Of a DNA stretch of 64,000 nucleotides, positions 19,354 through 32,622 are shown piece by piece (positions within the stretch are counted from its first letter, which is position 1; the number at the start of each line of letters is the position of its first letter). The stretch is from Pseudomonas sp. PDM15. GTDB taxonomy: Bacteria > Pseudomonadota > Gammaproteobacteria > Pseudomonadales > Pseudomonadaceae. The notes below the pieces were generated by a model, which searched no databases, was not told where the DNA came from, and saw nothing but the letters and a program-made list of their open reading frames with translations. The DNA lies in assembly GCF_014851565.1 (NCBI RefSeq), contig NZ_JACVAA010000003.1, positions 186,001 through 250,000 of the forward strand, in the 5' to 3' direction. The position numbers and the translations under genes are program-made.

Positions 19354-19788
19354 ATGCAAGGCGCAAAACGCAAGGTGGTCCAGGCGCTGCTCTACGAGCT
19401 AATCGGCGCGTTGTTCGTGTCGCCGGTGATTGCCTACGCCTTCGACGAGAGCATGGTCTACTCCGGCACCCTGGCCATGCTGCTGTCCCTGGTGGCGCTG
19501 AGCTGGAACATGCTGTTCAACGGCCTGTTCGAGTACTGGGAGGCCAGGCAGAAGCGGCGTACTCGCACCCTGGGGCGGCGTCTGCTGCATTCGCTGGGTT
19601 TCGAGGGCGGCCTGGCGCTGATGCTGGTGCCGCTGATGGCCTGGTGGCTGGATATTTCCTGGCTGCAGGCGCTGGTGGCCGATCTGGGGCTGCTGCTGTT
19701 TTTCTTCTTCTATGCCTTCGCGTTCCAGTGGGCCTTCGATCTGCTGTTCGGCGTGCCCACTTCCGCGGTCGAGGTTTGCCAGGGATGA
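19354..19788 (+). CDS. PACE-family multidrug efflux transporter
   Basis: A 144-residue inner-membrane protein with four hydrophobic segments arranged as two tandem bacterial transmembrane pair domains. The conserved Glu15 in the first helix (VVQALLYELIGAL), essential in AceI, is present at exactly that position, and ALSWNMLFNGLFEYWE and FAFQWAFDLLFG match the family's repeated motif. PACE proteins export biocides such as chlorhexidine, and short-chain diamines, by proton exchange. Its LysR neighbour probably controls it. Confidence 0.92.
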   Translation: MQGAKRKVVQALLYELIGALFVSPVIAYAFDESMVYSGTLAMLLSLVALSWNMLFNGLFEYWEARQKRRTRTLGRRLLHSLGFEGGLALMLVPLMAWWLDISWLQALVADLGLLLFFFFYAFAFQWAFDLLFGVPTSAVEVCQG

Positions 19789-19927: not shown

Positions 19928-20404
19928 ATGGACAGATTTACTGTGCTGCCTTTCCGGCTAGCGGGGCAGCATCTGGCGGTACCTCTGGAAAACGTGATCC
20001 GGGTGATCCCGGCATTGCAATGCACGCCGCTGCCGGGCGCGCCGCAGACCGTTCTCGGCCTGGCCAATGTGCGTGGGCAGATTGTCCCGGTAGTGGACCT
20101 GGCACGGCGCTTCGCCTGGCCGGCGGCGCCTCTCGCGCTATGGCAGCCGTTTCTCTGGCTGCGCAGTCGCACTCGCGAACTGCTGGTACCGGTCGATGGC
20201 GTGGAGACGGCGGCCCAGTGCTCCGCCACGGATGTGGTTGATTCCGCGCAGCCCCGAGTGCCTAGCGAGATGGTGCGCGGCGTGTTGCGTACCGAGGAGG
20301 GCATGCTGCTGATCCAGGACGTCGAGCAACTACTGAGCGACGCTGACGAGCTTGAACTGCAACGCGCGCTGGATGCCAACGGAGCGGACGATGCGCCAGG
20401 CTGA
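19928..20404 (+). CDS. CheW-like coupling protein (first of chemosensory operon)
   Basis: A 158-residue CheW-domain protein (FTVLPFRLAGQHLAVPLENVIRVI, VLGLANVRGQIVPVVDLARRF). CheW proteins connect the chemoreceptor to the CheA kinase. It opens a seven-gene operon resembling Wsp, with the next start overlapping it by 14 bp. It corresponds to WspB by position relative to the CheR gene. The 139 bp upstream contain a direct repeat GACCGGTT (twice) but no promoter I can assign firmly. Confidence 0.88.
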   Translation: MDRFTVLPFRLAGQHLAVPLENVIRVIPALQCTPLPGAPQTVLGLANVRGQIVPVVDLARRFAWPAAPLALWQPFLWLRSRTRELLVPVDGVETAAQCSATDVVDSAQPRVPSEMVRGVLRTEEGMLLIQDVEQLLSDADELELQRALDANGADDAPG

Positions 20405-21878
20405 GCCGACCTGTTCGCCGCGGCTGCTGGAGGTGCTGGCGAGCAAGGTGCACCAGCATCTGGGCATGGACTTCGGCGGGCCACGGCGGGCCGAGCTGCT
20501 GCGGCGCCTGCGCCAGCTGGCCGTGGAACAGGGGCGTGATCCGGCTACCTGGCTGGAGAGCCTGGCCTTCGCGGACTGGGACGATGCGCAGATCCAGGCC
20601 CTGATTCCCGCCTTCAGTGTCGGCGAAACCTACTTCCGGCGCGATGCCGAGGCCCTCGACTGGCTGGCCCGCCACCACCTGGCGCCGCTGCTGCAGCGCC
20701 GGCGCGCTGCCGGCCAGCGCTATCTGCGGGTGTGGAGCGCGGCCTGCTGCACCGGCGAGGAGGCCTACAGCCTGCTGTTCCTGCTCGACGGGCTGCTGGG
20801 CGCCGAGGCAGCGAGCTGGACGCTGGAATTGCTGGCCAGCGACATCAACGCCGGTTTCCTCGCCCGTGCCGAGCAGGGGCGCTACGGGCAGAACGCCTTT
20901 CGGCGCAACGAGGAGGCGTTCCGCACCCACTATTTCCAGGCCGACGAGCGCAGCTGGCGGGTACGCCCCGAATGGCGCGGCCGCATTCACTTCCTGCGCC
21001 ACAACCTGGCCGACAAGGCGTTGCCCAATCCCGGTCGGGGACTGGCCGGGATCGATCTGATCCTCTGTCGCAATGTGCTGATGTACTTCTCCACCGAACA
21101 TGCCACGGCCGCGCTGCGTCGCCTGCTGGCCTGCCTGAGCGACGACGGCATCCTGGTGCTCAGCGCCGTGGAGGCGGGCCTCGCCACCCAGGCCGGCCTG
21201 AACGGCTTCTGGGCCGGCAGCAACTACGCGCTGGCAGCGGATGCGGCCGCGCGGACCTCGCCGCCACCGCTAGCGAGAACACAGCCCATTCAGGCCCCCG
21301 TGGTGGAGTTCAAGTTCGTGCCACCGGCGCCTCCCGAACCTGTCGCCAGTGCGCCGGCGCAGGTCGAGCCCGACACCCTGTGGCGCGATGCCGAGGCGGC
21401 GTTGGCCCAGGGCCGCATGGATCGGGCACGGGAACTGCTGGATGGCTACCTGGCCCGCCCCGGTCTGGCCCTGGCCAGGCGCTATGACGCCTGCCTGCTG
21501 ATGGCACGCAGCTGGGCCGATCAACAGCGCAGCGGCGAGGCCAGGGAATGGTTGCAACGCGCCCTCGATCTGGATGCCGCAGCGCTGCCTGCCTATTGGC
21601 TGCAGGCGCTGTTGGCCCGCCAGGAGGGTGACGTGACGGCGGCCCTGCAGGCCCTGCACAAGGCGCTCTACCTGGACCCTGACTGCTCGATGCTGCACTT
21701 CCAGCAGGGGCTGCTGCTGCGCGAGGCAGGCCGCCGCCAGCCCGGCGACAAGGCCCTGCGGGTCTGTTTGGGACTGCTGCAGTCCTGGGCCGCCGACGCA
21801 CAGGTGCCGCTCGGCGACGGCCTCAGCGCCGGCCAGCTGCGTCGGCTCTGCGAACAATTGCTGGAGGGCCGCGCATGA
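20391..21878 (+). CDS. CheR-type methyltransferase with C-terminal TPR repeats (WspC-like)
   Basis: A 495-residue protein. The start at 20391 has GGAG 6 bases upstream. Residues about 10-270 are a CheR domain that methylates receptor glutamates with S-adenosylmethionine: SVGETYFRRD, the SAM site VWSAACCTGEEAYS and CRNVLMYFS. After a proline-rich linker (about 285-325), residues about 325-470 form TPR-like helices. CheR plus TPR is the architecture of WspC, where the TPR part contacts other components. The stop overlaps the next CheW gene (ATGA). Confidence 0.92.
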   Translation: MRQAEPTCSPRLLEVLASKVHQHLGMDFGGPRRAELLRRLRQLAVEQGRDPATWLESLAFADWDDAQIQALIPAFSVGETYFRRDAEALDWLARHHLAPLLQRRRAAGQRYLRVWSAACCTGEEAYSLLFLLDGLLGAEAASWTLELLASDINAGFLARAEQGRYGQNAFRRNEEAFRTHYFQADERSWRVRPEWRGRIHFLRHNLADKALPNPGRGLAGIDLILCRNVLMYFSTEHATAALRRLLACLSDDGILVLSAVEAGLATQAGLNGFWAGSNYALAADAAARTSPPPLARTQPIQAPVVEFKFVPPAPPEPVASAPAQVEPDTLWRDAEAALAQGRMDRARELLDGYLARPGLALARRYDACLLMARSWADQQRSGEAREWLQRALDLDAAALPAYWLQALLARQEGDVTAALQALHKALYLDPDCSMLHFQQGLLLREAGRRQPGDKALRVCLGLLQSWAADAQVPLGDGLSAGQLRRLCEQLLEGRA

Positions 21879-22483
21879 ACGAGACGAGCAACGTCGAGGA
21901 GCGCTGGGCGCAGTTGCGCGAGCGCCTCGCGGAGTTCGAACGGCGCATCGACCAGGAATTCTCCCCCGACCCCGGCGAGCACCAGGAGCGCCTGCAGCAA
22001 CGCACCCGCGAATGGGCGCGCAACGTCGAGGAAACTCGGCCGGACAGCCTGATCGAGCTGCTCAGCTTTACCCTCGGCGAAGAGCTCTACGCGATCGAGA
22101 CCCTGCATGTCGGCGCCGTGCTGCCGCTGCCGCACTTCACCCCGCTGCCGGGTACGCCACCCTTCGTGCTGGGCATCGTCAATGTGCGCGGGCACATCGT
22201 CTCGGTGCTGGACCTGCGGGTGTTCTTCGAACTGCCGATCGAGGGCCTCTCCGACAAGAACTACCTGGTGGTGCTGCGCAACCAGGACATGGAATTCGGC
22301 CTGCTGGCCGATCGCATCCGCGGTATCGAGCAGATCCCGCGCGACAGCCTGCAGGCGGGCCTGGCCAACCTGACGGGCATCCGCGCGAACTACCTGCTGG
22401 GAGTTACCGCGGAGCAGACCACGGTGCTGGATGGCACACGCCTGCTCGGTGACCCGAACCTACGCGTCCACGCCGACGACTAA
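21875..22483 (+). CDS. CheW-like coupling protein with N-terminal extension (WspD-like)
   Basis: A 202-residue protein. A charged helical extension of about 55 residues precedes the CheW domain ([38 protein letters not shown]). Wsp systems have two CheW proteins, WspB and the extended WspD, and this matches the latter. It overlaps the CheR gene by 4 bp and ends 20 bp before the receptor gene. Confidence 0.9.
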
Positions 22484-22503
22484 CGACCAAGCAAGGAGGA
22501 TTC

Positions 22504-24132
22504 ATGCTGGCAAACCTGTTGAACCTGCGTATCGGTAGCAAGCTGATGCTGGCATTCGCGGTGCTGATCCTGGGTTTCGCATTGCTGCTGTTCACCACGC
22601 TGGAGCAGTTCGTCGCCTTGCAGAAAAGCGAGGAGGAACAGTTCGCCCGACGCTATGCGCGGGTGACCGACGTCAAGGACCTGCTGATCAGCATCAACCT
22701 GCAGCGGGTGGAGATGCTCAGCGCCCTCGGCGGCGATGCCCAGGTGCTGGAGGAAAGCATTCGCGCCGGCAGCGAGCTGAATGATCGTCGCCTGGAACGC
22801 CTGCAGACCGCCGTGCAGGGTGACGAGGTGACCATCGAGCTGCTCAAGCAGATGCAAAGCCTGCGCGCCGGTTATGTGCGCAGCCGCGACAACGAACTGC
22901 TGCCGCTGCTGCAGGCTGGCAAGCTGGACGAAGTGCGGGCGTTGGTCGCCGGCCCGCAGCGGCAACGAGTGGAGCGCCTGCACGACCTGGCCGAACAACT
23001 GGTGGCACGCACCAATCAGCGCATTGCCGAGAGCACCATCCAGTCGCAACAGGCGCTGGAGGACCTGCGCAGCAGCATCTTCCAGGCCGGCCTGGCCCTG
23101 GTGCTGGGCGGCGCGCTGCTGGCCTGGCTGCTCAGCCGGCACATCGCCCAGCCGCTGGCGCGCCTGACCAACCTGGCCGAGCAGATCGGCCGTGGCGAAA
23201 TTCCCCGCGAACTGCCCGGGCACACGCGCCAGGACGAGGTCGGCCGTCTCAGCCACGCGTTCTTCAACATGAGCCAGTACCTGCGCGAACTGGTCCAGGA
23301 GCTCGACGAGAGCATCTCGGTGGTGGCCAGCGCCAGCGAGGAAATTATCGCGGTGACCACCCAGGTGGCGGCCAGCACCCAGGAAACCGCCACGGCGATC
23401 AGCGAGATCGCCACCACGGTGGAGGAGGTCAAGCAGACGGCGGTGCTCGCCGGCAACAAGTCGCAGTCGGTCAGCGAGAGCACCGAGCGTACCCGCCAGG
23501 TGGTGCAGAGCGGCCGCCAGTCGGTGGAAGAAAACCTGCGCGGCATGGGCCTGATCCGCGAGCAGATGCAGGCGGTGGCCGAGAGCATCATGCGCCTGGG
23601 CGAGCAGAGCCAGACCATCGGCGAGATAGTCGCCTCGGTCAACGACCTGGCCGAACAATCCAACCTGCTCGGCGTGAATGCCTCGATCGAGGCGGTCAAG
23701 GCCGGCGAGGCGGGCAAGGGGTTCTCGGTGGTGGCGCAGGAGGTCAAGACCCTCGCTGAACAGTCCAAACAGGCCACCGCCCAGGTGCGTGGCATCCTCG
23801 GCGACATCCAGAAGGCCATGACCAAGGCGGTGATTCTCGCCGAGGAGGGCAGCAAGTCGGTGGAGGGCGGCTACCAGCGTGCCCAGGTCAGTGGCGAGGC
23901 GATCCGCACCCTGGGCAGCAGCGTGGAAGAATCCAGCGAGATCGCCCTGCAGATCGCCGCCACCAGCCAGCAGCAGATGATCGGCATGGACCAGATCGGC
24001 AGCGCCATGGAGAACATCCGCCAGGCCAGCCAGGACAATGTGGCCGGTGCGCGGCAGGTGGACATGGCGGCGCGCAATCTGCATCAGCTCGGCCTCAAGC
24101 TCAAGGGCCTGGCGGCCCGGTTCAAGCTGTGA
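22504..24132 (+). CDS. Methyl-accepting chemotaxis protein (WspA-like)
   Basis: A 542-residue receptor with AGGAGG just upstream. TM1 is at about residues 12-32, then an about 150-residue four-helix-bundle sensor domain, TM2 at about 195-215, a HAMP domain ([19 protein letters not shown]), and a signalling domain whose hairpin tip reads [28 protein letters not shown]. WspA is normally the first gene of a wsp operon; here it is fourth. WspA responds to surface contact; the stimulus here is unknown. Confidence 0.93.
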
Positions 24133-24139
24133 GGCACCC

Positions 24140-26338
24140 GTGAGCTTCGACCGCGACGCACTCCGGCAGCGGCTGCAGGCGAGCTTCCGCGCCGAGGCGG
24201 CCGAGCGTCTGGCAATCCTCGCCGACACCCTGGCCAACTGGCGCGAGGGTGGCGCCAGCGAGCAGGGCATCGAGTCGCTGTTTCGCGAGGTGCACAGCAT
24301 CAAGGGAGCATCGCGAGCCGCCGGGATCGGCGAGATCGAGCGAATCTGCCACGCCTGGGAGAGCCTGCTCGGCGCCGTGCGCCACGCCCATATCGAGCTG
24401 ACGCCGGAACGGGTAGAGCTGTGCCGCCTGACCCTCAAATTGGTGCAGCGCCTGCACGCCGGTCAGGAGGTGGATGGCAACGAGCTGGCGCAGATGATCG
24501 ACAGCCTCAACGACAGCACCCTGGGTCAGGAGGTGGAGCTGCCGGTGCTGGAAGCACCCAGTGCCGAGCTGCCGCAGGACCCGACCACCGTGCGCGTGGC
24601 CACCGAGCGCCTGGACGCGCTGCTGTTCCACAGCGAGGTGCTGCTGCAGCACAAGTTGGAGGCCCAGGCCCACGCGCGCAGCCTGCAGGAGCACGCGCTG
24701 GCCTTCGAGCCGCAGCGGACCAAACGCATGCTCGGCTCCGGTGCGCTCAAGCAGCTGCGCGAGAGCCTCGATGAGCTGCCCAGTAGCGCCCAGGAAGGCC
24801 TCAAGAGCGTGCTCGATTATCTCGACTGGAGCCTGTCGCAGCTCGACCGCCTGCATTTCGGGGCCGCGCGCCTGGCCAAGTCTGGAGCGCAGATGGCCCT
24901 GGGACTGGCCCAGTTGTCCGACGCGCTGACCGGCGAGATGCAGGGCGCGCTGTTGCTGTCTGGCAGCAGTCTGCTCGAAGGCGTGCCGGCCATGGTCCAG
25001 GACATCGCCAGCCAGGCCGGCAAACGCGCGGAGCTGCAGGTACGCGGCGAAAGCCTGCAGATCGACAAGCGCATCCTCGACGAGCTGCGCATCGTCCTCA
25101 CCCACCTGCTGCGCAACGCCATCGACCACGGCCTGGAAACCCCGGAGCAGCGCACCGGCCAGGGCAAGAATCCGGTAGGAAAACTGCTAGTGGAACTGGC
25201 CCAGGAGTCGGCGGACCGCTTCGAACTGCGGGTCAGCGACGACGGTGCGGGCATCGATCCCGCCGGGCTGAAGGCAAAGGCCATGGCTGCCGGACTGCTC
25301 AGCGCGGAGCAGGCACAGGCCCTGGGCGAGCGCGAGGCGTTGGGGTTGATCTTCCTCTCCGGGCTGTCCACCAGCGGCATGATCACCGACATTTCCGGCC
25401 GCGGCCTAGGCATGGCCATCGTCCAGGACACGGTGGAGCGTCTCGGTGGGCGCATCGAACTGGAGTCCACGCGCAGTGCCGGCACCTGTTTCCACCTGCA
25501 CCTGCCGCTGAGCCTGTCGACCTTCCGCGCGGTGATCGTGCGCAACGCCGAGCGGGTGTTCGCGGTGCCGGCCCTGGCGGTGGAACGCTGCCTGCGCCTG
25601 CCGGCGAGTGCCATCCGTACCCTGGAGAATCGCCCGTCGGTGGCCTTCGAAGGCGAGGTGCTGCCGCTCTGGCCGCTGGCCGATGTGCTCGGCCTGGCGC
25701 AGCCGCCGATCATCGCCAGCGAGCTGACTCTGCTGCTGCTCAAGGTGCGCGGCGAGCGCTTCGTGCTGCTGGTGGAGGAGCTGCTGGGCGACCAGGAAAT
25801 CATCGTCAAGAACCTCGGCCGCCAGCTGCAGCGGGTGCGCAACCTGATGGGCGCCACCGTGCTAGGCGATGGCCAACTGGTGCCCATCCTGCATCCCGCC
25901 GATCTCTATCGCAGCGCATTGGAGTCGCAGGACTCCAGCCTCAGCCAGCAGGCGCAGCCGCGCCGCAGCGAGGTAGTGCAGCGCCTGCTGATCGCCGAGG
26001 ACTCGTTTACTTCGCGGGGGCTGCTCAAGGCGATTCTGGAGGCGGCGGGTTACCGGGTGACCACCGCCAACGATGGCCTGGAGGCCTGGAATGCCTTGAA
26101 GCAGGGACAGTTCGACCTGCTGGTGTCCGACGTGGAAATGCCGCGTCTGGATGGCTTCACCCTGACCAGCCGCATTCGCGCCGACCGCACCCTGGCGGAT
26201 CTGCCGGTGGTGCTGGTGACCGCCCTGCATTCTGCCGAGGACCGCGCACGCGGTCTGGAGGCGGGGGCCAATGCCTATCTGGCCAAGAGCGGTTTCGAGC
26301 AGGACAACCTGCTGGAAGCCATTCGCCGGCTCATCTGA
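24140..26338 (+). CDS. Hybrid CheA histidine kinase with receiver domain (WspE-like)
   Basis: A 732-residue kinase starting at a GTG 7 bases after the receptor stop; the open frame upstream overlaps the receptor gene and is spurious. Domains: HPt with phospho-acceptor His52 (FREVHSIKGASRAAG), dimerisation helices, an ATPase domain (HLLRNAIDHGLETPEQR; DDGAGIDPAGL; SGRGLGMAIVQDTV), a CheW-like domain, and a C-terminal receiver with Asp664 (VSDVEMPRLDGFTL). HPt-kinase-CheW-REC is the WspE arrangement. It should phosphorylate its own receiver, the CheB gene product and the receiver of the output protein. Confidence 0.94.
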   Translation: MSFDRDALRQRLQASFRAEAAERLAILADTLANWREGGASEQGIESLFREVHSIKGASRAAGIGEIERICHAWESLLGAVRHAHIELTPERVELCRLTLKLVQRLHAGQEVDGNELAQMIDSLNDSTLGQEVELPVLEAPSAELPQDPTTVRVATERLDALLFHSEVLLQHKLEAQAHARSLQEHALAFEPQRTKRMLGSGALKQLRESLDELPSSAQEGLKSVLDYLDWSLSQLDRLHFGAARLAKSGAQMALGLAQLSDALTGEMQGALLLSGSSLLEGVPAMVQDIASQAGKRAELQVRGESLQIDKRILDELRIVLTHLLRNAIDHGLETPEQRTGQGKNPVGKLLVELAQESADRFELRVSDDGAGIDPAGLKAKAMAAGLLSAEQAQALGEREALGLIFLSGLSTSGMITDISGRGLGMAIVQDTVERLGGRIELESTRSAGTCFHLHLPLSLSTFRAVIVRNAERVFAVPALAVERCLRLPASAIRTLENRPSVAFEGEVLPLWPLADVLGLAQPPIIASELTLLLLKVRGERFVLLVEELLGDQEIIVKNLGRQLQRVRNLMGATVLGDGQLVPILHPADLYRSALESQDSSLSQQAQPRRSEVVQRLLIAEDSFTSRGLLKAILEAAGYRVTTANDGLEAWNALKQGQFDLLVSDVEMPRLDGFTLTSRIRADRTLADLPVVLVTALHSAEDRARGLEAGANAYLAKSGFEQDNLLEAIRRLI

Positions 26339-26350
26339 GGGGGGACGGGA

Positions 26351-27418
26351 ATGCGTGTGCTGGTAGTGGACGATTCACCGGTGAGCCGCATGCTGCTGCG
26401 TGCCGTGCTCGAGGGGGAGGGCTATGAGGTACGCGAGGCCAGCACCGGTAGCGAGGCTTTGCAGGCGCTACTCGGCGGGTTCACCCCGGACATCGTCACC
26501 ATGGACGTGCACATGCCGGGCATGGATGGCTACGAGACCACTGAGCGCATTCTCGAGCACTACGCCTTGCCGGTGGTGATTCTCTCCGCCAGCGTCAACC
26601 ACCAGGCCTCGGTCACGGCCATGCGCGCCCTCGAAGCCGGCGCCCTGGCGGTACTGGAGAAGCCGGCGGGGCCGACCGCCAGCGACTTCGAGGAGCGCAT
26701 TGATGAGCTGCTGCGCACCCTGCGCAGCATGGTCCAGGTGAAAATCGTGCGGCGTAAGCGCCGACCCAGTGCGGCGAGCGCTGTCGATACTCCGCCGCTG
26801 GTGGCGCAGACGGCGGCGTGCGCACCGTTGCTGGTGGCGATCTCCGCATCGGCGGGTGGCCCGATGGCGATCAAGGCTTTCCTGCAATCCCTGGTGCCAC
26901 CACAGCCCTGGGCCATGGTGCTGGTCCAGCACATCGCGCCAGGCTTTTTGCCGAGCTTCCGCGACTGGCTGGCGACGCTGACGCCGCTACCGATAGTGAT
27001 CGCCGAGGGTGGCCAGCGCCTGACTCCTGGCGCATTGCACCTGGCGCCGGACGGTCATCATCTGGGCTTTGCCGCCAATCGCAGCGTGGTTCTCGACGAT
27101 GCCCCGCCGGAAGAACACGTGCGCCCGGCCGCCAACTACCTGTTCCGCTCGGTTGCCCGTCACTTCGGCAAGCAGGCGATCGGCATCCAGATGTCCGGCA
27201 TGGGCCGCGACGGCGCCCAAGGCCTGGCCGATATGTGCCAGGCCGGCGCCCTGACTCTGGTGCAGGAACCGAGTACGGCGGTGATCGACTCCATGCCCAA
27301 GGCGGCCATCGGTCTGCAGGCAGCCCGTCAGGTGCTGCCGCCCGAAGGCATCGCAGAACTGCTCAACGCAATAGCCGCCCACATGGCCGCAGTAAACGGA
27401 AGTAACGGGAGGGAATGA
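26351..27418 (+). CDS. CheB-type methylesterase response regulator (WspF-like)
   Basis: A 355-residue protein: a receiver (VDDSPVSRML, Asp52 in TMDVHMPGMDG) and a C-terminal methylesterase domain. The catalytic triad is visible as Ser167 (ISASAGGP), His194 (VQHIAPGF) and Asp287 (SGMGRDGAQG). It removes receptor methyl groups and so resets signalling; loss of WspF locks Wsp on. Its stop overlaps a possible ATG of the next gene, but the better start of that gene is 6 bases further on. Confidence 0.93.
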   Translation: MRVLVVDDSPVSRMLLRAVLEGEGYEVREASTGSEALQALLGGFTPDIVTMDVHMPGMDGYETTERILEHYALPVVILSASVNHQASVTAMRALEAGALAVLEKPAGPTASDFEERIDELLRTLRSMVQVKIVRRKRRPSAASAVDTPPLVAQTAACAPLLVAISASAGGPMAIKAFLQSLVPPQPWAMVLVQHIAPGFLPSFRDWLATLTPLPIVIAEGGQRLTPGALHLAPDGHHLGFAANRSVVLDDAPPEEHVRPAANYLFRSVARHFGKQAIGIQMSGMGRDGAQGLADMCQAGALTLVQEPSTAVIDSMPKAAIGLQAARQVLPPEGIAELLNAIAAHMAAVNGSNGRE

Positions 27419-27420
27419 CC

Positions 27421-30400
27421 ATGTATGCCGACGCCGACATCTTGGTGGTGGAAGACAGCCACACCCAGGCCACCGAACTGCAGTACATGCTCGAAGCCGT
27501 TGGCTGCAAGGTGCGGGTGGCGAGCAATGGCCGCGAGGCGCTGGAGATGGTGGCGGTGCGCAAGCCGACCATCGTCATCAGCGACATCGTCATGCCGGAA
27601 ATGGACGGCTATGAGCTGTGCCGTCAGCTGAAGAGTTCGGCGCTGACCCAGAGCATCCCGATCATCCTGGTCACTGCACTGGCGGACGCCCGCGATGTAG
27701 TCCATGGCCTGGCGTCGGGAGCCGACAACTTCATCGTCAAGCCCTTTGACGAAAAATACCTGATGTCGCGCATCCGCTACTTTCTGGTCAACCTGGAGCT
27801 GCGCAGCCACGAGCGGGTGCAGATGGGCGTCGAGGTCGTGCTGGAGGGCGAGCGGCACTTCATCACCGCCAGCCGCCAGCAGATCCTCGACCTGCTGATC
27901 TCCACCTACGAGCAGGGCGTACGCCTGAACAACGAGCTTCAGGCCAAACACGACGAGCTGGCCCGTACCAACTCGCTGCTCAATTGCCTGTTCCACTTCA
28001 CCAGCGGCCTGACTGATGCCAAGAGCGAGCGCAACGTCATCGACGCTGCGCTGCGGCGCATCCTGGAGTTCCCCGATGCGGTCGGCGCCTGGCTGCTGCT
28101 GGCCGACGCCAACGAGCCGCACGAGCCGGCCCATGTGGCTGGCGCCCGCGCGCGTGGGCCGAACTATTCGAAGCATGATCTCGATAAATGCGCCCGCAAC
28201 TGCCCGTGCCGGCATGCCTGGGTCAGCGACAAGCTGTCCCGGCCGAGCAACATCAGTGACTGCCCGGCGTTGATCGACAAGCCCGGCGACTCCATCCACG
28301 CCAGCATCCCGCTGCAGATGGGCAGCGAGATCATCGGCATGCTCAACGTGGTACAGCGCGATGCGCAGCCCTGGTCGGAAGAGTCGCTCAGCGCCCTGGC
28401 CTCGATCGGCCGCCAGCTGGCCATGGCCCTGGGCCGCGCGCGCCTGTTCGAAAGCATGGAGCAACTGGTGGAGCAGCGCACCGAGGCGCTGACCAAGAGC
28501 GAGGAGCTGTTGCGCAAGGTACTGGACAGCCTGCCGGTGGGGGTGTTCGTCACCGACCAGCAAGGCCGCCTGATCATGAGCAATCCGGAAAGCAGCCTGA
28601 TCTGGGGCGGCGCCCACCCGAGCGGGGCGGAGGGTTACGGCCACTATCGCGGTTGGTGGGCGGAAACCGGCGAACGCATCACCGAGACGGACTGGTCGAT
28701 GATGCGCGCCGTGCAGCACGGTCGGGTGTCGCGCAACGAGGTGGTTGACATCGAGACCTTCAAGGGCGAGCGCAAGACCATCCTCAACTCGGCGGTGCCA
28801 TTTCGCGATGCCAGCCAGGTGATCCAGGGCGCCATCGTGGTGATCCAGGACATCACCGAACAGCGCCGCCGTGACCTGGACATTCGCATCCGCACCCGCG
28901 CGGTCGAGGCCAGCGTCAACGCGGTGATCATCACCGATGCCGAACATCCGGATCAGCCCATCGTCTACGCCAATCCGGCCTTCGAGCGCATCACCGGCTA
29001 TGCGGTCGAGGATGTCCTGGGGCGCAACTGTCGTTTTCTGCAAGGCGACGAGCGCAATCAGGCCGGGCTGGACAACATTCGCCGCGCCCTGGTGGCGAAG
29101 GAGGAGGGTGCAGCCCTGCTGCGCAACTACCGCAAGGACGGCTCGGAATTCTGGAACGACCTGCGGGTGGCGCCGGTGGTCAACGATCGCGGCAAGGTCA
29201 GCCATTTCGTCGGCATCCTGCATGACGTCACCGAGAGCAAGCGCTATCAGGAGGAGCTGGAACACCAGGCCAACCACGACAGCCTCACCGGCCTGCCCAA
29301 TCGCAACCTGCTCAATGACCGTATCGGCCAGGCCATCGCCTTCGCCAGCCGCGGCAGCGGCCAGTTCACCCTGGCGTTCATGGATGTCGACCAGTTCAAG
29401 GTGGTCAACGACAGTCTGGGCCACAGCGCCGGCGACCAGCTGCTGATCGAGATTGCCGCGCGGCTGCGTGCCAGTGTGCGTGACATCGACACAGTGGCGC
29501 GGCTGGGGGGCGACGAGTTCATCATTCTGGTGGCCGACACCGTCCAGCTCAGCGAGCAGGTCGCCCTGCTGGAGCATATCAAGGACACCATCGCCAGCCC
29601 GATGATGCTGGATGGTCAGGAAGTGGCGGTCAGCTGCAGCATCGGTTTCTGCTGCTTCCCCAGCGACGGGCGCGATGCCGGCACCCTGCTGCGCAACGCC
29701 GACACTGCCATGTACCAGGCCAAGCACCAGGGGCGTAACCGCATCTGCGCCTTCATGCCGGCGATGAACGAGCAGGTGCAGGCGCGCTTGGCCATGGAAC
29801 AGCAGACTCGCCACGCCCTGCAGAACCAGGAATTCATCGTTTTCTACCAGCCGCAGCTGGACCTGCAGAGCGGCCGTCTGTGCGGTTTCGAGGCGCTGGT
29901 GCGCTGGAATCGCGGTGGCACCATCGTCTCGCCGGGCGAGTTCATTCCGCTGGCCGAGGAAACCGGCTGGATCGTCGATATCGACTTCTACGTGTTCGAG
30001 ATGGTATGCAAGCAGCTGGCGATCTGGCGCGAGAGCTTCAGCCAGGACCTCAGCGTGGCGGTGAACTTCTCCGCCATCAGTTTCGCCGACGAGAACTTCA
30101 TCGAACGCATCCTCAGCGTGCTGAGGAACCAGAGCATTCCCTCGCGTTGGATCAAGATCGAACTGACCGAGACCATCCTCACCAGCGACGCCGACGTGGT
30201 GCAGCGCAAGATGCAGCATCTGTGCGAGCAGGGCGTGCGCTTCTCCATCGACGATTTCGGTACCGGCTACTCGTCGCTGGGTTACCTCAAGCGCTTCCCG
30301 TTCAGCCAGCTGAAGATCGACCGCAGCTTCATCACCGACATTCTCACCGAACCGGACAGCGCCTCGCTGGCCCGCTCGATGATCTCCATCGGCCACAACC

Positions 30401-30999
30401 TGGGGATAAAGGTGATCGCCGAAGGGGTGGAGCAGTCGGAGCAGATGAGCTTCCTGCGCGCCGCCGGCTGCGACGAGATGCAGGGCTACTTCTACTCACC
30501 GCCGCTGCCGCCGCTGGCCTGCATGCAGTTCCTGCAGAGCGGCGCGCCGCTGAGCCTGCCGACCAATATCCTCGATGGCACCGAGCGTTATCTGCTGATC
30601 GTCGATGGCAGCACCGAGAGCCACGACGCCCTGCGCCGCCTTCTGCGTCTGGAAAGCTACAAGCTGCTCAGCGCCAGCGACGGCGCCGCCGCGCTCAACC
30701 TGATGGCGCAATACCCGGTGGACGTGGTGCTGACCGACCTGAGCCTAGTCGACATGCACGGGGTGGAATTCCTGCGCAAGGTCCGCAGCATCTACCCGGA
30801 CGCCATCCGCCTGGCCCTAAGCGACGCCGCTCGGGTCGGCAGCATCCTAAAGGCGGTCAACGAGGGCGTGATCTACCGCTTCATCACCACCCCATGGGAG
30901 CCGGAAGACCTGCGCAACCAGCTGCGCGAGGCCTTCCAGCAACGCGAACTGCACCGCGAGAACCGCCGCCTGCGCGAGCAGGTTGGCATGGCGCGCTGA
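27421..30999 (+). CDS. Multi-sensor c-di-GMP enzyme: REC-GAF-PAS-LOV-GGDEF-EAL-REC
   Basis: A 1192-residue cytoplasmic protein. The ATG at 27421 has GGGAGGG about 7 bases upstream; the ATG at 27415 would be too close. Domains: canonical receiver (Glu11, Asp12, Asp55, Thr85, Lys107); GAF (about 188-345); PAS (about 365-480); LOV-type PAS (about 490-605) with Cys537 in GRNCRFLQG, Asn569 and Asn579 but Leu600 where LOV proteins have Gln; GGDEF with intact GGDEF (696-700); EAL with intact EAL (824-826) and DDFGTGYSSL; a final receiver-like domain with Asp1106, but Gly1063 and Thr1157 replacing an acidic residue and the conserved Lys. It takes the WspR position and probably converts kinase and possibly light input into c-di-GMP change. 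Confidence 0.9.
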   Translation: MYADADILVVEDSHTQATELQYMLEAVGCKVRVASNGREALEMVAVRKPTIVISDIVMPEMDGYELCRQLKSSALTQSIPIILVTALADARDVVHGLASGADNFIVKPFDEKYLMSRIRYFLVNLELRSHERVQMGVEVVLEGERHFITASRQQILDLLISTYEQGVRLNNELQAKHDELARTNSLLNCLFHFTSGLTDAKSERNVIDAALRRILEFPDAVGAWLLLADANEPHEPAHVAGARARGPNYSKHDLDKCARNCPCRHAWVSDKLSRPSNISDCPALIDKPGDSIHASIPLQMGSEIIGMLNVVQRDAQPWSEESLSALASIGRQLAMALGRARLFESMEQLVEQRTEALTKSEELLRKVLDSLPVGVFVTDQQGRLIMSNPESSLIWGGAHPSGAEGYGHYRGWWAETGERITETDWSMMRAVQHGRVSRNEVVDIETFKGERKTILNSAVPFRDASQVIQGAIVVIQDITEQRRRDLDIRIRTRAVEASVNAVIITDAEHPDQPIVYANPAFERITGYAVEDVLGRNCRFLQGDERNQAGLDNIRRALVAKEEGAALLRNYRKDGSEFWNDLRVAPVVNDRGKVSHFVGILHDVTESKRYQEELEHQANHDSLTGLPNRNLLNDRIGQAIAFASRGSGQFTLAFMDVDQFKVVNDSLGHSAGDQLLIEIAARLRASVRDIDTVARLGGDEFIILVADTVQLSEQVALLEHIKDTIASPMMLDGQEVAVSCSIGFCCFPSDGRDAGTLLRNADTAMYQAKHQGRNRICAFMPAMNEQVQARLAMEQQTRHALQNQEFIVFYQPQLDLQSGRLCGFEALVRWNRGGTIVSPGEFIPLAEETGWIVDIDFYVFEMVCKQLAIWRESFSQDLSVAVNFSAISFADENFIERILSVLRNQSIPSRWIKIELTETILTSDADVVQRKMQHLCEQGVRFSIDDFGTGYSSLGYLKRFPFSQLKIDRSFITDILTEPDSASLARSMISIGHNLGIKVIAEGVEQSEQMSFLRAAGCDEMQGYFYSPPLPPLACMQFLQSGAPLSLPTNILDGTERYLLIVDGSTESHDALRRLLRLESYKLLSASDGAAALNLMAQYPVDVVLTDLSLVDMHGVEFLRKVRSIYPDAIRLALSDAARVGSILKAVNEGVIYRFITTPWEPEDLRNQLREAFQQRELHRENRRLREQVGMAR

Positions 31000-31000
31000 G

Positions 31001-32347
31001 TCAGCGTCGATATAGTCGCTCGTAGCAATCCAGCAGCGGCTGGGTCGACAGGCCGTGCAACAGGATGCTCAGGGCCACCACGCTGAGCACCAGGTCGCTG
31101 GCCTCGCTGGCGGCCAGTGGGGACAGGTCGTGGTTGATGGCGTAGCTGAGGTAGTACAGGCTGCCGATGCCGCGGATGCCGAACCAGCCGACGAACAGGC
31201 GATGGCCGAGTGGCAATTGGCGCTCGCGGATCAGCAACACGGCCATGGCCGGGCGTACCAGGCAGAACAGGGCGAGCGCCAGGGGCAGGGCGCGCCAGTC
31301 CCAGTGGTAGATCAGCAGGGCGCCGAGCAGGGTCACCAGGAGGATTTCCAGAATGCGCTCGAGCAGCCCGCCGAAGGAGAGGATGTCGGCCATCAGCGCG
31401 CCGGCGGCGATCTGCGGGTGCTCTTCCGGATCGGCGCCGAACTCCACCAGCACATTGGCTTGGCCTTCCTCGCGCGGCGCCGGATTGACGTTCTTTTCTT
31501 CTGCGGGATCATCGGTGTGGCTGCTGGTCTCCACCTCGGCATGGCGCAGGCCCAGGCCGGCGGCGAAGGTGGCGAGAAAGCCCCAGGCACCGATGAACTC
31601 TGCGCAGGCGTAGGAGAGAGAGATCAGCGCCAGTGCGAGGAAGTCGTTGGCAGTCACCACCGTATCGGTGTGTCGTGCGCGCAGGTAGATCACCAGGCGC
31701 CCGGTGCCGCGGCCGAGTGCATAACCTAGCAGCAGGCCGGCGGGGACGGCCCACACCACGTCACTGAGCAGCCAGCGCATTACCTCATCAAGCTGCGGTA
31801 GCGCTTGCCCTTGGGCGATCAGCAGCAGCGCGAGCACCACGAAGGGAAAGGCGATGCCGTCATTGAGCCCGGCCTCGCCGGAGATCGCGTAACGCAGGCG
31901 GTCGACATCGCCGGCATGGCTGACCTGCACCAGGCTGGCCAGTACCGGATCGGTGGGCGAGAGGATGGCCGCCACCAGCAGCGCCAGGCCCCAGTCCAGG
32001 CCGAGGCCGAAGTGGCCGACCAGGGTCAGGCCGAGGATGGTGCCGACCAACACCGGCCCCGCCAGTAGCCAGGCCGCGCGCCATTCCGGCGAACGCAGCG
32101 GCAGGCGCAGCTTGAGCCCGCCGATGAACAGCGAGACCAGTACCGCGGCCCCGGCCAGATGTTCCAGCCAACCACTGATAGGGCCGAGGCCCTGCTGCCA
32201 GAGTTTTAGGCCGAGAGGGCCGATGGCCAGGCCGAAGGTCAGGTACAGCACCGAGGATGAGATCGGCAGCAGGCGCAGGTAGGCGGACGCCAGCGCCAGG
32301 ATCAACAGCAGGGTGCCAAGTACCAGCAGCCAAAGGCTGAAGCTCAT
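31001..32347 (-). CDS. CPA1-type cation/proton antiporter
   Basis: A 448-residue membrane protein with about 12 segments of the Na+/H+ exchanger superfamily. The start MSFSLWLL at 32347 has GGAG 6 bases upstream. The core motif ILSPTDPVLASLVQV contains the transport aspartate, and ISGEAGLNDGIAFPFV matches the second conserved acidic segment. An acidic loop of about 50 residues (around 270-320) interrupts the later half. Its stop lies 1 bp from the convergent c-di-GMP gene. The ion is not identifiable. Confidence 0.9.
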   Translation of the reverse strand: MSFSLWLLVLGTLLLILALASAYLRLLPISSSVLYLTFGLAIGPLGLKLWQQGLGPISGWLEHLAGAAVLVSLFIGGLKLRLPLRSPEWRAAWLLAGPVLVGTILGLTLVGHFGLGLDWGLALLVAAILSPTDPVLASLVQVSHAGDVDRLRYAISGEAGLNDGIAFPFVVLALLLIAQGQALPQLDEVMRWLLSDVVWAVPAGLLLGYALGRGTGRLVIYLRARHTDTVVTANDFLALALISLSYACAEFIGAWGFLATFAAGLGLRHAEVETSSHTDDPAEEKNVNPAPREEGQANVLVEFGADPEEHPQIAAGALMADILSFGGLLERILEILLVTLLGALLIYHWDWRALPLALALFCLVRPAMAVLLIRERQLPLGHRLFVGWFGIRGIGSLYYLSYAINHDLSPLAASEASDLVLSVVALSILLHGLSTQPLLDCYERLYRR

Positions 32348-32622
32348 GGCGTTCTCCGTTGGCACGGTGCGGGGCAGGGCGAAGGATGCATCGGAAGACC
32401 GCCTGGTAGGTTATTCAGTTGAGACGGGGCTGCGGGCTGCGGGGTTCAAGGCGCTTTTCCGGTTGGCTGGGCTGCGGATCGATACGTCATCGGCTGCTGG
32501 CCCATGCCGTGAGTGGCCAGGACATCGGGATGCCGATCCCGATCCGGCGGCTCGGCGATTGCCTGAACTTGTACCGTCGCGCTCGGCTCCATCTAGCAGG
32601 GTCCGAGCCGGCGGAGTGGCGG

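Follow-up and report, generated by a model that had tools for sequence, protein, structure and literature searches.

The 64,000-nucleotide stretch of Pseudomonas sp. PDM15 analysed here (contig NZ_JACVAA010000003.1, positions 186,001 to 250,000; hereafter the window) carries at 19928-30999 a chemosensory operon of seven genes, the last of which encodes a predicted cyclic di-GMP (c-di-GMP) enzyme with several sensory domains of its own. We take this operon to specify a pathway of the alternative cellular functions (ACF) class, distinct in lineage from Wsp, with the gene order CheW-CheR.TPR-CheW-MCP-CheA.REC-CheB followed by a receiver-hairpin-coil module and its effector, and controlling a multi-input c-di-GMP enzyme, a reading to which we assign a probability of roughly 0.7. 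It is built on the genes and their order, the lineage of the core proteins, a receiver module shared with related operons, intact catalytic motifs and the conserved cysteine of a LOV domain. The initial interpretation of the DNA (the sequence-only reading) had described a Wsp pathway rewired to such a protein; on the comparisons below it was wrong in lineage and right in kind, the operon being a chemosensory one that ends in a predicted c-di-GMP enzyme.

Translation and Pfam searches recover all seven chemosensory genes with the domains first ascribed to them, all on the + strand, with the receptor gene fourth and the output gene last; each gene overlaps its neighbour or lies within 20 bases of it. 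The first encodes a CheW of 158 residues (19928-20404; PF01584, 1.1e-24), whose orthologues also stand first in the operon. It is followed by a CheR methyltransferase (20373-21878; PF01739, 3.6e-35), the start of which is uncertain (TTG 20352, ATG 20373 or ATG 20391) and which is fused to TPR repeats as in ACF systems, the TPR assignment relying on three models that match within residues 413-445, each under its own cut-off. A second CheW of 202 residues (21875-22483; PF01584, 1.8e-28) precedes the receptor (22504-24132, 542 residues), which comprises a 4HB-type sensor, HAMP and the MCP signalling domain (PF12729, PF00672, PF00015). CheA (24140-26338, 732 residues) combines Hpt, HATPase, CheW and receiver (REC) domains (PF01627, PF02518, PF01584, PF00072); the longest open reading frame begins at ATG 24038, but GTG 24140 is the likelier start because most orthologous frames share that length. 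CheB (receiver and methylesterase, 26351-27418, 355 residues; PF00072, PF01339) immediately precedes the output gene (27415-30999), for which Pfam and residue conservation give the architecture REC-hairpin/coil-GAF-PAS-LOV-GGDEF-EAL-REC, one GAF model match falling below its own cut-off. This architecture agrees with the sequence-only reading, including the GGDEF and EAL domains and the extra sensor domains; the length given there, 1192 residues, does not, the protein having 1194.

The component set, two CheWs, CheR-TPR, MCP, CheA-REC and CheB in one operon, is also that of Wsp, and the question then is whether the shared make-up reflects shared descent. The operon's CheA was searched against a family sample of 148 genomes and found matches in 40 of them (E up to 1e-85), comprising orthologues at 64-81% identity and a second group at 31-34%. 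Among 15 fetched loci of the second group, 14 place the MCP first, then CheR, CheA, CheB and REC-GGDEF, which is the Wsp arrangement, and the remaining one (L095) resembles Halomonas cluster 2; the CheWs at the Wsp loci were mostly too weak for single-sequence models, and all were seen in L093 with better ones. Like Wsp (WspA-F and WspR of Pseudomonas), the operon thus combines these components with a c-di-GMP enzyme as output; unlike Wsp, its receptor stands fourth rather than first, its output is not a REC-GGDEF protein, with a receiver and linker unlike those of WspR (WspH lying outside the comparison), and its CheA, 31-35% identical to those of Wsp, falls on another branch. The accessible text of PMC8552884, which uses synteny as a criterion, describes 794 Wsp clusters, every one with a wspR or wspH homologue.

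In a CheA tree of 61 rows (19 from operons of the window's type, with the window's own among them, 11 from the set of 14 Wsp loci, 9 from operons with a histidine kinase (HK) output, 18 others and 4 outgroups) the window clade of 19 rows has a support of 100, the 11 Wsp rows stand elsewhere, and the sister of the window clade is the HK-type group (9 rows, 94), the joint branch being supported at 99. An approximately unbiased (AU) test rejected a clade of window and Wsp CheAs (log-likelihood difference 215, p 1.6e-10). For MCP (53 rows), CheB (43) and CheR (39), trees were built from part of the loci; AU tests against the Wsp grouping gave p 2.6e-5 for MCP, 1e-4 for CheR and, marginally, 0.04 for CheB. 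The MCP signalling domain groups with the HK-type operons, apart from the Wsp receptors, at a joint support of 99; for CheB and CheR that support is 89.5 and 89.9, below the mark of 95, values that count as not shown rather than as rejected. When the CheA tree was rerun without outgroups and long branches (L002, L003, L004, L141, L143, L145, L148 and L152), with L157-L159 added and Wsp as root, the operon joined the HK type again (99) and L157-L159 fell on the HK side. On the CheA and MCP phylogenies, which had been proposed as the check on it, the idea of a rewired Wsp pathway does not hold. Moreover, when the CheA of L093 is the query, 6 of the 15 family genomes that carry the output protein (hereafter carriers) hold an additional CheA of this WspE type (65-69% identity), whereas the other nine, the window's genome among them, have only the operon CheA and non-Wsp CheAs (E up to 1e-60). 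The trees, the AU tests and this coexistence together lead us to reject the view that the operon is Wsp, and the coexistence likewise disposes of the notion that the two systems are mutually exclusive.

The operon recurs in other genomes. A CheA scan of named genomes returned 35 relatives, 26 of them close (L009-L034, 46-97% identity), in Pseudomonas or Pseudomonadales and including two Stutzerimonas and four Chitinimonas loci. Since the same genes in the same order, receptor number aside, are found in other genomes, the arrangement is not due to chance, and on contigs of sufficient length both the operon and the output architecture are constant save for the number of receptor genes: L011, L012 and L014 have none, and L015, L026 and L104 have a tandem pair. 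The output protein itself occurs in 15 of the 148 family genomes, the window's own counted (E up to 1e-200), and in 2 of 299 genomes of a phylum sample, namely the window's own and one congener. Several local variations were observed. The tandem receptors of L104 have near-identical signalling parts and different sensor parts; in Chitinimonas a receptor gene lies just upstream on the opposite strand (L029:3907-5661, L030:3651-5375, L032:3790-5550) and groups with the operon receptor class on a long branch; and a further LOV/PAS-GGDEF-EAL-REC gene, possibly an output paralogue, stands near the operon at L025:17032-20235 and L107:1-2277.

The sister operons came from a CheA search of a phylum sample of 398 genomes, 54 of which gave matches at E up to 1e-85; twenty regions were fetched. 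Nine CheAs scored 395-445 bits (40-43% identity), most of their alignments spanning the last ~590 residues only, as against 328 bits or less for Wsp-type CheAs. Five of these nine HK-type loci (L135, L137, L138, L139 and L141), those with the whole operon in view, keep the complete order CheW-CheR.TPR-CheW-MCP-CheA.REC-CheB followed by a REC..HATPase hybrid, with the receptor fourth, as do L157 and L158; contig ends truncate L133, L134 and L140, and the CheA of L136 lies within an overlong frame. Of the truncated loci, L140 still shows the kinase part of its output and L133, by eye, the beginning of it; no such part is visible in L134. All six hybrids examined contain HisKA and HATPase (Pfam), five of them, not L135, with an additional REC or Hpt. 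The HK-output operons (L135, L137, L138, L139, L141 and L157) share with the window operon the gene order, the CheA and MCP lineage and the receiver-hairpin-coil module of the output; they differ in the effector, which in them is a histidine kinase, usually accompanied by additional REC or Hpt domains, rather than GAF-PAS-LOV-GGDEF-EAL. Because sister operons, and also L145 and L150 with CheAs further off, have the receptor in fourth position, this order is wider than the sister lineage and need not be a rearrangement of Wsp; that it must have come from moving WspA was accordingly rejected.

Two outputs in complete operons of the same order, L157 (REC-GAF-HK-REC-REC) and L158 (REC-GAF-GAF-GGDEF-EAL), are architectural intermediates. 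The L158 operon, from a Gammaproteobacterium (G746), shares order, module and a GGDEF-EAL output with that of the window; its output differs in having no LOV domain, no terminal REC and a degenerate GGDEF. Its CheA falls with those of the HK operons (p 0.04 against joining the window clade), and L158 may on that value be a second origin of a c-di-GMP effector. By itself the L158 output (L158:5388-8369), with an intact-looking EAL and a degenerate GGDEF motif, is a probable phosphodiesterase or c-di-GMP binder.

What links these operons at the output end is the first stretch of the output protein (residues 1-190, 27415-27984), delimited by phmmer, alignment, a structure model and its adjacency to CheB. 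Residues 1-200 match the N-termini of the hybrids over the receiver and the stretch that follows, and residues 128-200 alone match hybrids at E 3e-14 to 3e-3, among them L145-L147, which lie beyond the sister group; at E up to 1 these linker matches contained no WspR. AlphaFold models a receiver, a beta-hairpin (137-152) and a long helix (154-202) at a mean pLDDT of 79, with block means of only 56-71 over residues 121-170. Searches with residues 1-200 found matches in 4 of 274 genomes of a class sample (E up to 1e-30) and in 24 of 398 genomes of the phylum sample (54 matches, E up to 1e-32), both counts taking in the window. Among 33 inspected loci, made up of 29 of the 53 non-window phylum matches and the 4 class matches and including 3 outputs of the window's type, 21 have the module immediately after CheB and 6 have it in one frame with CheB, counts that stand without a control set of receivers. 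On sequence, these operons appear to have retained the receiver module and exchanged the effector attached to it. The single-frame cases (L166, L168, L177, L179, L183 and L184) are probable fusions of CheB and module, and L181, one of the six loci where CheB is neither directly upstream nor fused, is the hybrid from the opposite end of the L145 operon.

The conservation of the output enzyme was followed in 31 aligned proteins from 30 distinct loci (L106 and L024 being the same locus; loci below 9 kb were left out). The Asp, Thr and Lys of the N-terminal receiver are kept in all 31 rows. The GGDEF motif is intact in 30, the window included (L015 reads SGDEF), and so is EAL (L032 reads ESL); L022 and L023 no longer have the I-site Arg. 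Additional EAL residues are conserved among the aligned outputs, and further GGDEF and EAL positions that we take to be catalytic are invariant in 19 rows. The Asp and Lys positions of the C-terminal receiver vary among orthologues, and this domain is probably a pseudo-receiver. In the LOV domain (residues ~486-612, 28870-29250) Cys539 of the NCR(F)LQ motif is kept in 31 of 31 rows, and the position of the active-site Gln, occupied by Gln in five aligned solved LOV chains, is Leu in all 31 rows (Leu602 in the window). The domain is probably a blue-light sensor. The available text of PMC9098866 reports around 350 natural Gln-less LOV domains, mostly with Leu or Ile, finds the Gln dispensable, and shows that a Gln-less LOV-GGDEF fragment still signals and is light-repressed. 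A separate feature is a C-x-C...C pattern in the GAF domain (residues 259-283, window 28189-28263), with Cys263, Cys265 and Cys283 invariant in 19 rows and the same pattern, by eye, in the GAF of L157 and L158; these could be metal or redox ligands.

The alternative that best survives is that LOV and GGDEF are inactive regulatory remnants and that the protein is simply a phosphodiesterase. The replacement of the active-site Gln by Leu throughout, the degenerate GGDEF in the output of the related L158 operon, and the closest NCBIfam model, the phosphodiesterase DibA, albeit far under its cut-off (514.6 against 980 bits), all speak for it. Against it stand the LOV Cys, retained in every one of the 31 rows, the GGDEF motif, retained in all but one, and the Gln-less LOV-GGDEF fragment of PMC9098866, which can still signal; we consider this explanation unlikely, though it deserves to be kept in mind. 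For the enzyme as predicted, a balance dominated by phosphodiesterase activity is slightly favoured, a guess barely above even odds.

If the preferred reading, an ACF pathway controlling a multi-input c-di-GMP enzyme, is followed through, the 4HB receptor, perhaps together with an unlinked receptor considered below, would assemble with CheA and both CheWs into an array, which CheR and CheB would adapt through methylation. Phosphate from CheA would pass to the N-terminal receiver of the output, to CheB and to CheA's own receiver, the last being a likely phosphate sink. The hairpin and coiled coil would relay the state of the receiver to the GGDEF-EAL pair, the balance of which could also be set by input at GAF and PAS and by blue light at LOV, and the net outcome would be a change in c-di-GMP; in effect, GAF-PAS-LOV-GGDEF-EAL-REC would stand in place of the usual hybrid histidine kinase. 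Phosphotransfer, the direction of control, the response to light, the role of the unlinked receptor and any phenotype are all inferred. A competing possibility is that the phosphate targets of the array are CheB and the CheA receiver, or another regulator, and that the GGDEF-EAL protein is mainly under light or redox control, its receiver serving only localisation or dimerisation. The CheA receiver does look intact by eye, and the output can receive separate input through its GAF, PAS and LOV domains, but the complete retention of Asp, Thr and Lys in the output receiver and the position of its module beside or within CheB in 27 of 33 loci make this a rather improbable account.

The unlinked receptor lies elsewhere in the window's own genome (L194:520-2481; G000:C11:809872-811830) and is a protein of 653 residues with CHASE3 and HAMP domains (Pfam). 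Its signalling part is 51% identical to that of the operon receptor, as compared with 27-33% for the other non-operon receptors listed. It is also present in genomes G014 and G102, which match L014 and L011, two of the operons without a receptor gene, and there it may replace the receptor that the operon lacks. In the family sample a search with this receptor (E up to 1e-75) found matches in 15 of 15 carriers and in 0 of 133 non-carriers. In 12 of the carriers the match is simply the operon's own receptor, which adds nothing independent; the CHASE3 form in full length is confined to three carriers (G000, G014 and G102), all of the window's genus, and is absent from the 133 non-carriers, 16 of them of the same genus. 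This distribution suggests, short of proof, that the unlinked receptor feeds the operon's pathway.

That the operon is nevertheless a true Wsp system, with a relocated receptor gene and a multi-sensor GGDEF-EAL protein in the place of WspR, is very improbable. Both do use CheR-TPR, two CheWs and CheA-REC, but a common clade is rejected for CheA, MCP, CheR and marginally CheB, 6 of 15 carriers have a Wsp-type CheA encoded by a gene apart from the operon, and in receiver and linker the output resembles other hybrids rather than WspR. A number of points do weigh against our own reading. The component make-up equals that of Wsp, from which the CheB tree separates the operon only marginally, and the grouping with the HK type lacks firm CheB and CheR support; the trees are quick searches with some long branches, and they leave out WspH and the named betaproteobacterial Wsp systems. 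Neither the receptor-fourth order (L145, L150) nor the receiver-linker module (L145-L147) is confined to the sister lineage, and six of the 33 module loci depart from the association with CheB, which has no control with other receivers. Phosphate from CheA could go mainly to the receiver within CheA itself, the LOV domain is missing a glutamine long considered essential, and some orthologues have lost the I-site (L022, L023), GGDEF (L015) or EAL (L032) motif. Finally, the CHASE3 carriers belong to one genus, in which sharing by descent alone is possible. Our confidence is slightly lower than at first because the receptor co-occurrence is mostly trivial and because the joint support for CheB and CheR lies below the mark.

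Several known systems are of a related kind. According to the accessible portion of PMC3447774, CheR-TPR genes mostly occur in clusters with multidomain response regulators, which is also the type of the output here (Pfam), and predominate in ACF clusters; around 40% of these regulators have a histidine kinase module, some 20 have GGDEF, and in two cases a receiver is fused to both GGDEF and EAL. ACF clusters with REC, GGDEF and EAL outputs have thus already been counted there; our literature search, which took in few subscription papers and not the supplementary cluster table of PMC3447774, found no description of this operon. Chemosensory systems modulating c-di-GMP are assigned to the ACF and type-IV-pilus classes in what is available of PMC8846402. 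Halomonas cluster 2, as described in the accessible part of PMC5907407, resembles Wsp and has a c-di-GMP enzyme, but differs from the window operon in its order (MCP-CheB-CheR-CheA-CheY-DGC-CheW) and in its Hpt-REC-REC-GGDEF output; the CheAs of its look-alikes L095 and L151 stand on another branch than the window clade. CfcR (Rup4959) of P. putida, compared by description only from the accessible part of PMC4951495, is a REC-PAS-GGDEF-EAL response regulator with reported diguanylate cyclase activity, but it is an orphan for which CfcA has been proposed as kinase, and no GAF or LOV domain is named there.

Upstream, the operon is flanked by a BTP-family (chlorhexidine efflux) gene (19354-19788, +), and downstream by a gene of the Na/H-exchanger family on the opposite strand (31001-32365). 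A scan for promoter-like and terminator-like sites returned 0 of each, against shuffle means of 0.8 and 4.6, and is little informative.

If the proposed pathway is correct, Pseudomonas would possess a second, non-Wsp chemosensory route to c-di-GMP, sometimes alongside Wsp in one cell. More tentatively, and with the odds somewhat against it, the receiver module could serve a group of chemosensory kinases as a portable 'plug', kept beside or fused to CheB while the effectors (hybrid kinase, GAF-kinase, GAF-GAF-GGDEF-EAL and GAF-PAS-LOV-GGDEF-EAL) are exchanged, so that one c-di-GMP enzyme in Pseudomonas would be the meeting point of a chemoreceptor array and a blue-light sensor. The natural series of effectors exchanged behind one receiver module would make the choice of output by CheA directly testable and, should the LOV domain work, a single enzyme would integrate the input of the receptor with blue light.

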